This document shows, piece after piece, positions 32,332-54,477 of a DNA stretch of 64,000 nucleotides. A program made the translations under genes and the position numbers. Numbering within the stretch: the first letter of the stretch is position 1; each line of letters opens with the position of its first letter. Below the pieces are notes generated by a model that worked only from the letters and a program-made list of their open reading frames with translations, was not told the DNA's origin and made no database searches. The stretch comes from Akkermansia muciniphila (GTDB lineage Bacteria > Verrucomicrobiota > Verrucomicrobiia > Verrucomicrobiales > Verrucomicrobiaceae). The DNA lies in contig CAMCWM010000004.1 of the NCBI GenBank assembly GCA_945882215.1, positions 1-64,000 of the forward strand, given 5' to 3'.

Positions 32332-35300
32332 TCAGCGGTTCACGCGGCACTGGGGCATGGCCTTCTGAAACTCGGCGGCAGCTTCGAGTGTGACGGCGGT
32401 GCCGCCAAGGTTCAAGCTGGTGAGTTTTTTGAGCGATTTGAGCTTCGCTAGGCCGGTGTCGGTGATCTTGGTGGCGCTGATGTCGAGATTACTAAGATTG
32501 GGAATTCCCGCGATGGCGGAGGCACCCTCGTCGTCGAAGGCGGTGCCGTTGAGCGTGAGCGAGACGAGGGTTTTGAGGCTGGTGAGGGCGGCGAAACCGG
32601 CGGCGGTGATTTTTGGTGAGGTGGTGCGGAAGGACTGGAGTTTTTTGAAGGTGCTGACGGCCCTCATGCCTTCATCCGTGATGCCGGATCCCATGAGTTC
32701 GAGGTTGGTGATGGAGGCGGCGCCGGCGATCTTGTCGAATCCCTGACCGGTGAAGCTCTCGGCATACTGGATGGCGAGGTAGTCGAGCTTTTTGAGCCCG
32801 GCGATGTGGGTGAGCACGCCATCAGTGAGCGCGTTGGCACCTTCGAAGTTCAGGTTGGTCAGCTCGCTGTTATTGGCGAGGAAGGCGAAGGCGGCGTCGC
32901 TCAGGCCGTTGTGCATCGGGCGGAAGTGTACGCGGCGCAGATCACGCAGGCCGTTGAGGGCGGCAAAGTCGGCGTCTTTGGCAGACGGGAGGACGGAATT
33001 GAGGCGTTCGAAGGTGAGTTCGATGATGTCGAAGCGGCCGGGGGGGATTTCCGATGTCTTGGTGACGGGCACAGTGACGCCATTTTTGAAGGCGGTGAAA
33101 AAGCCCCCGTTATTGACGAGGTATTCGGCAGCGGTGCGCCAGGAACTGCCGCCGCCGGGCGGAGCTTTCGGGGCGGGCATGAGCGTGGTTTTAGGCGTTG
33201 CTGCGGTCACGGCAGAAGTCGCGGGCTTCTGCGCGGCGATTTCATCGTGGAGCGCCTGGATGCGGACGGCGGTGTCCGTTTTGCCCGCCTTGGTCAGTTC
33301 GGCGACATAGGCATCTATGGCCTTCAAGTAGAGATCGTAGAGCGGGGCGGCCCTGGCATCGCGTTCGGCGGTGATTTTTGCGAGAGCACCGCGATAGGTG
33401 GCGCGGAGTGATTTGAGGGACGCGGGAGTTTCCGCTGCGTCTTCCGCAGGAACGGTGCCGCCTTTTTCGATGAGCGCCTTTTCCGCATCGAGCATCGTCA
33501 CCTCGAAGAGGCTGCCTCTGGTCTGCGCGGCGGCACGGGCTTTGGCGATGCCGTTGGTGACGTAGCTATTGTTCAGCGCGGCGAGCGCGGCGTGCCAGGG
33601 CTGTTGGGCGTCGGTATTGTGACGAGTTTTGAAACCTGCCTCGATTTGAGCGAGACGAGGATGCTCAGCGAGGAGCGCGGCCTTGCGCTCGGCGAAGACA
33701 TCGATCACGCGGATTTCGGCCTGGGTGACGGTGATCTCGCCGGTACAGACGCCGATACCGAGTATGGGGCCTGTGTTCTTTTCGGGTTTGAAGAAAGCCT
33801 GGTCGAACTGGCCGGGCGACAGGGGACCAGTATAATCAATCTGCGCCACGCCGTCATAGCTGATGAGGACGCGATTCTCACGCACCTCGAAATGAAGCTC
33901 GTGGCTGCTGCCATCCGGCGGGAGCCAGTTTCTGGCCGTTTGCTCCGCTGTGGGATTCGAACCGACGAGAGTGAAGCCCGCGCCACCGTCGATTAAGAGG
34001 GCCTGGCCCTCTTTGCCACGGACAAACGGCAGAATCACCACGCTGCCAGGAAGGTCACGGCTGACACGCAGACGCAGTTCGTAATTCAGCAGGGGCTCGC
34101 TCTGCGGAAACATGAAGGTTTCATGCGCGGGCGCGGCTGGCGGGCTGCGCAGCACGCCATTCTCCAAGCGCCAGGGAGCAGACATGGCATCGCGAGCACC
34201 ATCGGAAGAAGCCAGGAGGTTGGTCCAGCCGGGCGTTGTTTTGACTGGCTGCGGAGCCGGACGCGCGGGTGCCGGAGTCGCAGGCATCGCGGGCGCGGTA
34301 CTGGCGACGGGGGCGGCGGGCATCGGCTTGGTGCCGTCGTCGTCCCACTCGACGAGGAAGGAGTAGAAATTGGTGTCAGGAACGTCGTCCCAGCATGTTT
34401 GATCCAGGTAAAAGGCCAGATACGGATCGTTGGTGTTCGGGACGGTTCCCAGCCAGAGCGCCATGTCAAATGGCTCCCCGGTCACCCACGTCCATGGCCC
34501 ATAGCCCTGTGTCCGATAACCGCCGAGGAAGACATGTGAGCGAGTCCACTTCAGCAACAAAAATGAGTTTTTCAGCCACTCGTTCTCCTCCTTGCTCGTG
34601 ATCGTGGCCAGATGTCCGCCCATGGACTCCGCCTTCACCTTGGCGGCGTCCCAGCGGAGGTTTTCCTCGACCAGTTGGTAGCGGTGGCCGCCGAAGGTCT
34701 GGACTGATCCAGACTTGAAGTCAGCAGGCGGGACTGAAGGCGCGGCTGCGGGAATCTCCGGTGTGGAGGCGGTGACTGCGGGTGCTGGTGGCGTGGTGGT
34801 GGGAACGGACGTGTTTTCGGCAGGTTCAGGCGTGCTGGAACCTGCCGCTGGCGGCGAAGGGGATGCTGCATTGTGGTCCGACGCCGGTTTTTTCGACGAA
34901 CCGCCTGTGAGCATGACATACAAGCCTGCGACGAGCGCGATGCTGGCTGCGATGCCCAGAATCGGGCCGAGGGTGGAAGTTCTTTTCGCCGGGGGAGCTT
35001 CTGCGTGGCCGCTTTTGGCCGCTTCGTGCTGCTTTTGCGCCTGCGTGGCACGCGCGGCAGTTTCAGCGGCGGCTTGCTGCTGCGCGATGAGCGCGGCGCG
35101 AGGCAGGGTCAAAATGGTGTCGAGATCACGGCGGAGATCGGCGGCGCTTTGATAGCGGTGGTCGCGGTCCGTCTGCATCGCCTTGGTGATGATGGCGTCA
35201 AAGCGCGGATCGGTGCCGAGCTTCATGCCCGGCAGCGTCCAGATGCCGCGCGGGATTTCTCCCGTGAGCATTTGGTAAAGCATGACACCGATGGCGTAGA

Positions 35301-53800: not shown

Positions 53801-54477
53801 TAGAGATCCGCGCGGCCATCCAGCGGCACGCCGGGCATCAGCGCCTCCGGGGAGACGAAGTCAGGCGTGCCCATGGCCATGTTCGTCTTTGTGAGGCCGA
53901 GTTGTCCCGCGTCCGTGGCCTTCGCCAGGCCGAAGTCGGCTACTTTGACCTGCCCCTCCATGTTGATGAGCACGTTGGCGGGCTTGATGTCGCGATGCAC
54001 GATGCCGTTCTTGTGTGCGTAGCCCAGCGCATCACACACATGCGCGGTGATGGAGAGCGCGTAGTCCTCCGGCAGCTTGCCCTGGCTTTGGATCATCTTC
54101 GCCACGTCCGTGCCGTCGATGAACTCCATGACGATGTAAAGCTGGCCGTCGCTCGTTTCGCCAAAGTCGTACACATGCACAATCGAGGCGTGATTCATCT
54201 TCGCCATTGTGCGCGCCTCGTTCTTGAAGCGCTCGACGAATTGCATGTCGTCTTCCGCAGCCTCCGGTGGCAGGATTTTGATGGCGACGGTGCGGTCCAG
54301 CGACTTTTGCCGGCCTTTGTACACCGCGCCCATGCCACCCTGGCCGAGGATGCTCAGAATCTCATAAGCGGGGAGCATTTCCTGCAACTGCTCGGGCGTC
54401 GGCGGCTGCCAGCGGAGATGACCGCCTGTCGTGCGCTGGTAGTTCGTCGGTGTCGCAGAGGCAGGGTCGTCAGGCAT
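50842..54477 (-). CDS. Array kinase 6: Ser/Thr kinase, C-type lectin, shared helical unit, long LRR tail
   Basis: N-terminal ~350 aa nearly identical to array kinase 5; FGGHRYQVLLEPLAWPAAKAKAESMGGHLATITSKEE; many LRRs ending LRKALPGCNVIK. Confidence 0.95.
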   Translation of the reverse strand: MPDDPASATPTNYQRTTGGHLRWQPPTPEQLQEMLPAYEILSILGQGGMGAVYKGRQKSLDRTVAIKILPPEAAEDDMQFVERFKNEARTMAKMNHASIVHVYDFGETSDGQLYIVMEFIDGTDVAKMIQSQGKLPEDYALSITAHVCDALGYAHKNGIVHRDIKPANVLINMEGQVKVADFGLAKATDAGQLGLTKTNMAMGTPDFVSPEALMPGVPLDGRADLYAVGVMLYNMLTGTIPRGAFRMPSATLQTDARFDKIIGKAMEMDRELRYQTALDLRRDLDVILTTPAAKTGMQTIPAQQVAAQQSLPQKPMGKTPQQRSADAPIRREPAAKSAPPPVQKSNTGMIYGIIAAVVVIALAAFMLTGGGKKPAVAAVTATTEEPPKPIPPPSPSNTKASATPGEVLTFGGHRYQVLLEPLAWPAAKAKAESMGGHLATITSKEEADFVTKTIGPGLIGLSDIPSRHGIILGASWSAASNSWQCDTGEAFDLEALAAKRFIPKRADARLIWSYRGERWDFVGNSIPLFSLVEWDDDGSKPALAMPAAARPAQVATPAAPAAVSVMPPPAPVMRAVASAPAPPADPRLAQLAAGFKARYEADAEKPYLAAVTALNQSYVANGIGRARAAAQQKGALEEVTSLDTEKRRIENNEPLPPADLDSLPVSLKTLRTTYRAALGKIEADRAQKAAPLYDLYLGALDAYIAELTKGNKIDEAQKVKTLRETIATQKPRTDAGPATVTTGTPTRPGTSRPGTKPAPSNGDSSDGGRGSRWYDAARWVVSVGGSLRVDKNGESFIVSSEDKIPAGRFAVLEVHITGNPKSQGIRDDDFTRFSGLKELTALNLTKIQATDAAFAFIPTTPSLTRVVISALPVTDAVLAHLAPLANLTDLHIQDTPQFTGAGLGKLASLPVLKTVWFSNSGLNDAGAKELLGGKNLEFVRLEGTPVTDEGIAGFGALTKLTHINLSRCMKVRGTTLAGWGSMPSLRELYLSGCLLSADTYPVIGKFASLATLHLDSITALNDATLPALAPLTKLTTLGLGRTSVTGSGFTALQGLTELKTLHVAEEAPISAEGLATIVATFPKLEELSLGQGAQLNAADFRSLTSLKSLKALRANLPALDDAALAEIARITSLETFYAQGTAVKLQGIVALKPLKFLTKLGVPLCKNIDDSAVPVLKDFKGLKELDIRSTAIAEAGIVELRKALPGCNVIK

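Follow-up and report, generated by a model that had tools for sequence, protein, structure and literature searches.

The six tandem kinase genes analyzed here are likely to form a domain-shuffled, birth-and-death locus of single-pass receptor Ser/Thr kinases, in which exchangeable outer modules are combined with a shared output. We base this reading on the varying number of kinases at the syntenic site in related genomes, on the replacement of modules in the first ectodomain slot (slot 1) between orthologs, and on the mutually rejecting trees of the individual modules. The same evidence (0-6 kinases per site, conflicting module trees, and module replacements or indels) bears out the proposal of an earlier note on this DNA that the array is a domain-shuffled repertoire sharing a signaling core. 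The array looks like a fast-evolving bacterial receptor set. It was studied in a window of 64,000 nucleotides, the whole stretch of DNA that was analyzed, from the 6.2-Mb draft genome of a Verrucomicrobiaceae bacterium (391 contigs, 67 Pkinase matches), where it is located on contig C4. Among the relatives with these genes, those that bear a name are Verrucomicrobia MAGs, including one labelled Prosthecobacter.

Organization of the kinase array

Six consecutive, co-oriented minus-strand genes span positions 32332-54477, with intergenic gaps of 4-149 bp and nothing else between them, and encode proteins of 1114-1398 aa (P1 to P6), as the earlier note had read them. In a promoter and terminator scan of the array, promoter-like sites were rarer than in shuffled sequences; the scan was uninformative, so the operon status of the array is judged from gene spacing only. 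All six proteins follow a common plan, consisting of a kinase domain (K), a transmembrane segment (TM), slot 1 with CTLD and/or putative jelly-roll modules, a helical S-module, and slot 2 with an LRR, an FGE fold or nothing. The arrangement is K-TM-CTLD-LamA-S-LRR in P1 (32332-35946, minus strand, 1204 aa) and P5 (47195-50692, minus, 1165 aa), K-TM-LamB-LamA-LamD-S in P2 (36042-39506, minus, 1154 aa), K-TM-LamA-LamC-CTLD-S in P3 (39603-42947, minus, 1114 aa), K-TM-LamE-LamB-LamA-S-FGE fold in P4 (42952-47148, minus, 1398 aa), and K-TM-CTLD-S-long LRR in P6 (50842-54477, minus, 1211 aa). Two flanking genes served as landmarks: a polyketide-cyclase-like gene (31831-32331, plus strand), which is found beside the locus in related genomes, and a divergent ECF sigma factor gene (55366-55890, plus strand), which 41 of 48 genus genomes possess, whether or not kinases adjoin it. 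A small protein with a PEP-CTERM-like C-terminus is encoded between the array and the ECF gene (54593-55258).

The motifs G.GGMG.VY, VAIK, HRDIKPAN, DFGLAK and [AS]PEA are present in six of six array proteins, and the Pfam Pkinase profile matches P1-P6 with E-values of 1e-50 to 1e-53. Judged by these motifs and the profile, P1-P6 are Hanks-type Ser/Thr protein kinases, in agreement with the earlier description of an intact kinase in every gene. The single TM segment claimed for each protein was likewise recovered, one strong segment being predicted in each open frame around residues 340-375, with one extra borderline 19-mer candidate each in P5 and P6. The best NCBIfam kinase match of all six is the PknB/Stk1 PASTA kinase model NF033483. 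The array kinases resemble this group in kinase class and single-TM layout, but they differ from it in that Pfam detects no PASTA domain in P1-P6 and that their scores of 293-301 bits lie below the model cutoff of 450; an assignment as PknB/Stk1 PASTA kinases was therefore rejected.

Further kinases and kinase-like proteins were observed. The window itself encodes an additional Ser/Thr kinase of 1566 aa (12584-17284, plus strand), which is diverged from the array kinases and has no S-module match. A second two-gene kinase locus with S-modules occurs in the same genome as the array (L054, 9145-19159, contig C52 of G000); its second gene is split in slot 1 by a frameshift (kinase 16991-19159, rest 13587-17171), which is either real or an assembly error. 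Four loci (L035, L037, L039 and L040, one each in G003, G010, G007 and G019) encode a kinase-like protein with a TM and half an S-module, in which HGALN, HGCLN or HGALD replaces the HRD catalytic loop and DFG is absent. It looks like a pseudokinase that several members of the genus have retained.

Ectodomain modules

The module content given in the earlier note was nearly correct, with the exceptions that P3 contains, besides its CTLD, two LamG-like modules rather than one, and that a conserved 143-aa helical S-module present in all six proteins had been omitted. The CTLD of P3 scores above the Pfam Lectin_C cutoff, those of P1 and P5 just below it, and that of P6 weakly; PDB matches to C-type lectin receptors were obtained for P3 (1e-31) and P5 (1e-15). 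By this Lectin_C similarity, the modules of P1, P3, P5 and P6 are classed as CTLDs. No Pfam match over cutoff was found for the LamG-like modules. A Foldseek search with the predicted ectodomain of P2 returned laminin, neurexin and galectin at 1e-8 to 1e-13, and with a model pLDDT of only 65 this suggests, at modest confidence, a jelly-roll fold.

The C-terminal module of P4, previously labelled SUMF1, does match the Pfam FGE-sulfatase family (4.6e-34), with PorK/GldK as its best PDB matches. There is no cysteine in the P4 segment RVLRGGSFMETGTNLLSSHRY, which we take to be where the catalytic cysteine pair of FGE would be expected. Because of this, the P4 module is, in spite of the matching fold, probably not a formylglycine-generating enzyme but a binding module.

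The S-module

BLAST among the six proteins exposed the S-module as a 143-aa all-helical stretch common to P1-P6, with pairwise identities of 52-71% at the amino acid level. It is encoded on the minus strand at 33229-33657 (P1), 36051-36476 (P2), 39612-40028 (P3), 43735-44160 (P4), 47924-48352 (P5) and 52291-52719 (P6). The AlphaFold structure predicted for the P5 copy consists of four helices of 48, 15, 45 and 15 residues, with a mean pLDDT of 92. No Pfam family matched the S-module over cutoff, no PDB sequence matched below E 0.1 (best E 0.13), and Foldseek returned no significant structural match (best E 1.2). An origin by internal duplication of a long-short helix pair was rejected, as a half-versus-half profile comparison was no better than shuffled controls.

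The source genome contains 15 S-module matches, seven of them strong, and strong matches (E <= 1e-40) occur in 14 of 48 genus genomes. At 1e-20 the module is confined to the one genus among 388 genomes sampled across the phylum. A search among relatives yielded diverged S-modules in another family of the order (G036 at 1.8e-27; G025 and G032 weaker). Diverged relatives of the S-module occur in other kinases, as well as in kinase-less FGE-fold proteins with a seeming secretion signal, so that the module would seem to be a recurring spacer outside the cytoplasm. At L029 and L033, we observed FGE-fold proteins that have no kinase but combine a helical part resembling the S-module with an apparent N-terminal signal sequence. 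The S-module can serve as a marker in searches for related extracytoplasmic sensor proteins among the Verrucomicrobiaceae.

Kinase copy number at the syntenic site

The syntenic site was analyzed by searches with both flanking proteins, followed by mapping of the fetched intervals. In Prosthecobacter-like relatives the cyclase-like and ECF flanks bracket 0, 1, 2, at least 3 or 6 kinases. No kinase is present in G001, G013, G039, G042 and G046, where the cyclase-like to ECF distance is about 1.1-1.4 kb and no kinase remnants were found at any of the five sites. One kinase lies between the flanks in G008, G052 and G021, the last having lost its catalytic core via a frameshifting deletion. For G004 and G017, two kinases were inferred by linking contigs; at least three were counted across contigs in G015, and six make up the array of the window; most of the compared genomes are fragmented MAGs whose contigs often break within kinase domains, so that some of these numbers are lower bounds or inferred joins. 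Chimeric assembly behind some of the compared contigs cannot be fully excluded.

In G060, all that is left next to the ECF gene is an N-terminal fragment of the kinase. Its gene is cut after approximately 103 residues, with a ParA-like reading frame and repeated sequence behind it (L105, 1-2010), which represents either a broken remnant or an assembly join. Related tandem arrays with other flanks were found in G058 (three genes) and G040 (two genes), and the kinase of G002 lies one gene past the cyclase, outside the cyclase-ECF interval. On the tree of the flanking proteins, the kinase presence state changed at least five times. Related genomes therefore do not show these genes dispersed with fixed architectures, the pattern that the earlier note had set against its proposal; the same interval holds 0 to 6 kinases with differing modules.

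These maps also bear on a possible link between the array and its neighbor. The ECF sigma factor, a small TM protein of anti-sigma type and an LTXXQ/Metal_resist protein are encoded together at 55366-57057, in what we describe as a conserved, envelope-stress-like operon. If the array were the input side of this divergent ECF sigma factor, a kinase would phosphorylate the sigma factor, as with PknT/EcfP or PknS/EcfK. Phosphorylation of an ECF sigma factor by a transmembrane Hanks kinase has a precedent in the available part of PMC13147305, and the divergent adjacency recurs in the window and in several relatives. We nevertheless consider this input role very unlikely. Most members of the genus have both the ECF gene and its LTXXQ-type partner, and many of these genomes are kinase-free at the site, which argues against the sigma factor as an obligate kinase partner; the operon has its own anti-sigma-type protein, as read from its sequence, and sigma region 2.2 retains acidic residues (AED). 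Because it is present where kinases are absent, the adjoining operon is probably a landmark only.

Module replacement between orthologs

Between orthologs the kinase, the S-module and slot 2 are retained at 76-91% nucleotide identity, with slot-1 modules replaced, added or missing. P6 and G015_b both adjoin the ECF gene and are 91% identical in K, 91% in S, 85-91% in the LRR and 52% in the CTLD at the nucleotide level. They have 1881 nt in common at 89.4%, running from the S-module through the gene end, and their slots 1 are unlike in length and content, G015_b having an extra LamA. At the other end of the locus, P1, G008_1 and G004_2 lie next to the cyclase gene, and in the S and LRR trees they cluster with G040_2 at moderate support. 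Slot 1 of these four proteins contains CTLD-LamA in P1, LamA in G008_1, a diverged CTLD-LamA in G004_2 (51% and 27% aa identity) and CTLD-CTLD in G040_2. Compared with P1, one CTLD of about 131 codons is cleanly missing from G008_1, with continuous homology on either side, and a second CTLD stands in place of LamA in G040_2. The order LamB-LamA-LamD-S is common to P2, G040_1 and G011_1, in which slot 2 is empty, an FGE fold and an LRR, respectively; the P2 copy of LamB is diverged (46% aa), and those of G040_1 and G011_1 are 79% identical.

Of 16 breakpoints, 13 are no more than 17 residues away from a module edge, versus 27% expected, a statistic that is partly circular since the breakpoint ends, taken from BLAST similarity blocks, and the module edges, taken from HMMs, derive from the same genes. 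Inside the six-gene array there is no near-identical pair of slot-1 modules (the best LamA pair is 62% identical at the amino acid level), which indicates that the swaps there were not very recent. No donor for these swaps was identified.

Trees of K, S, CTLD, LamA and LRR were compared by AU tests, in which two ML trees were evaluated under one model. All ten pairs mutually rejected each other (p-AU below 0.001). In a mixture-model check the S tree unites P2 with G040_1 (100/94.6), whereas the K tree unites P2 with P4 (100/99.7) and rejects P2+G040_1 (p 0.003); the P2+P4 grouping is not rejected in S (p 0.15). The P5+P6 grouping is rejected in S, and their kinases are 96% identical. For this pair dS rises from 0.41 in K to 1.15 in S and 1.90 in the LRR; values above 1 are unreliable, and synonymous sites outside the kinase are close to saturation. 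The gradient is consistent with homogenized kinase ends.

Plain tandem duplication followed by divergence, with the kinase under strong purifying selection, rapidly drifting ectodomains and no module exchange, would account for a kinase dN that is far below the ectodomain dN in every pair, and some LamA and CTLD differences are indeed simple divergence. It does not account for S and distal modules at 76-91% nucleotide identity around one internal module that is wholly different, added or missing, and it is contradicted by P6/G015_b, P1/G008_1 and P1/G040_2, unless those contigs are chimeric. Conflicting module trees and a synonymous divergence that varies along a single gene pair likewise make this history quite improbable. 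The C-terminal modules are thus not one homologous, unswapped domain: their trees reject each other, and clean replacements and indels fall at module edges.

Discussion

A domain-shuffled locus of this kind may have arisen by homologous recombination between paralogs or alleles, together with a degree of gene conversion in the kinase part. Homology arms would be provided by the conserved end of the kinase and by the S-module, so that slot 1 could be diversified and the output kept constant. Ligand contact is expected outside the inner membrane, on the swappable modules, and slots 1 and 2 may bind envelope or environmental ligands such as polymers, prey, phage or neighbors. Carbohydrate or surface ligands, as the earlier note suggested, would fit the CTLD, putative jelly-roll, LRR and FGE folds. 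The S-rod might set spacing or transmit a change, and clustering or a conformational change via this rod would activate the kinase. The kinases may then dimerize and phosphorylate common cytoplasmic targets, in which case many inputs would converge on one output.

Alternatively, the lectin-like ectodomains might bind polymers of the cell's own envelope and report the state of the wall, with no foreign sensing. PknB-type kinases sense wall fragments, and folds like those of the ectodomains bind polymers in general. One would not expect a housekeeping wall sensor to be missing from the site in many relatives or to swap its modules so freely, and we regard a self-directed role as possible but on balance unlikely. 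A stronger version of the shuffled-locus reading, in which the array is a dedicated combinatorial recognition system with lectin-like cassettes recombined between kinase/TM and S-module anchors, is more doubtful still. Plant receptor-like kinase clusters are tandem birth-and-death arrays with a constant kinase and a variable lectin or LRR ectodomain; they offer a works-like analogy only, as the array is bacterial and its kinase is N-terminal.

Kinase expansion in the PVC group is already known. In Planctomycetota, transmembrane Hanks kinases with varied outer modules are expanded in a lineage-specific manner, for which duplication and/or recombination was suggested (Odelgard et al., 2024; PMC11032199, available part), and expanded transmembrane kinases with diverse periplasmic domains are also described in PMC8567305. 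The array shares with the kinases of PMC11032199 an inner kinase, varied outer modules and lineage-specific expansion. According to the available part of that paper, however, the Planctomycetota kinases carry mainly WD40/TPR repeats, and a syntenic 0-to-6 locus, module replacement between orthologs and a constant S-module were not found there. Tandem duplications of kinase genes in myxobacteria (Perez et al., 2008, as cited in PMC11032199) are similarly neighboring and species-specific, but the citing text, as far as available, describes no swapping of ectodomain modules.

In multicellular bacteria, putative antigen sensors with CTLD or FGE folds are diversified by DGRs, and some of the targets have kinase domains (PMC10907252). 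The array resembles these sensors in its CTLD or FGE-fold sensing modules and in domain shuffling, whereas its CTLDs are internal and no reverse transcriptase is encoded nearby, the sole RVT_1 match in the genome being on contig C86. Judged by this reverse-transcriptase search, DGR-driven variation of the array is unlikely. We found no description of the locus, of the module exchange or of the S-module in the open-access literature, subscription papers being outside the scope of the search; judged on that literature, the swapping locus and the S-module appear to be undescribed.

If the combinatorial system were real, it would track changing surface ligands (phages, predators, prey or kin) and functionally parallel the plant receptor-kinase clusters. 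The locus provides a natural domain-swap series at one site, in which orthologs with the same kinase, S-module and tail differ in one ectodomain module. It makes it feasible to study what the individual modules sense and in what way exchangeable inputs drive a constant kinase. Plants and animals are the usual subjects for this question, and bacterial receptor kinases of the PknB type are usually studied singly.
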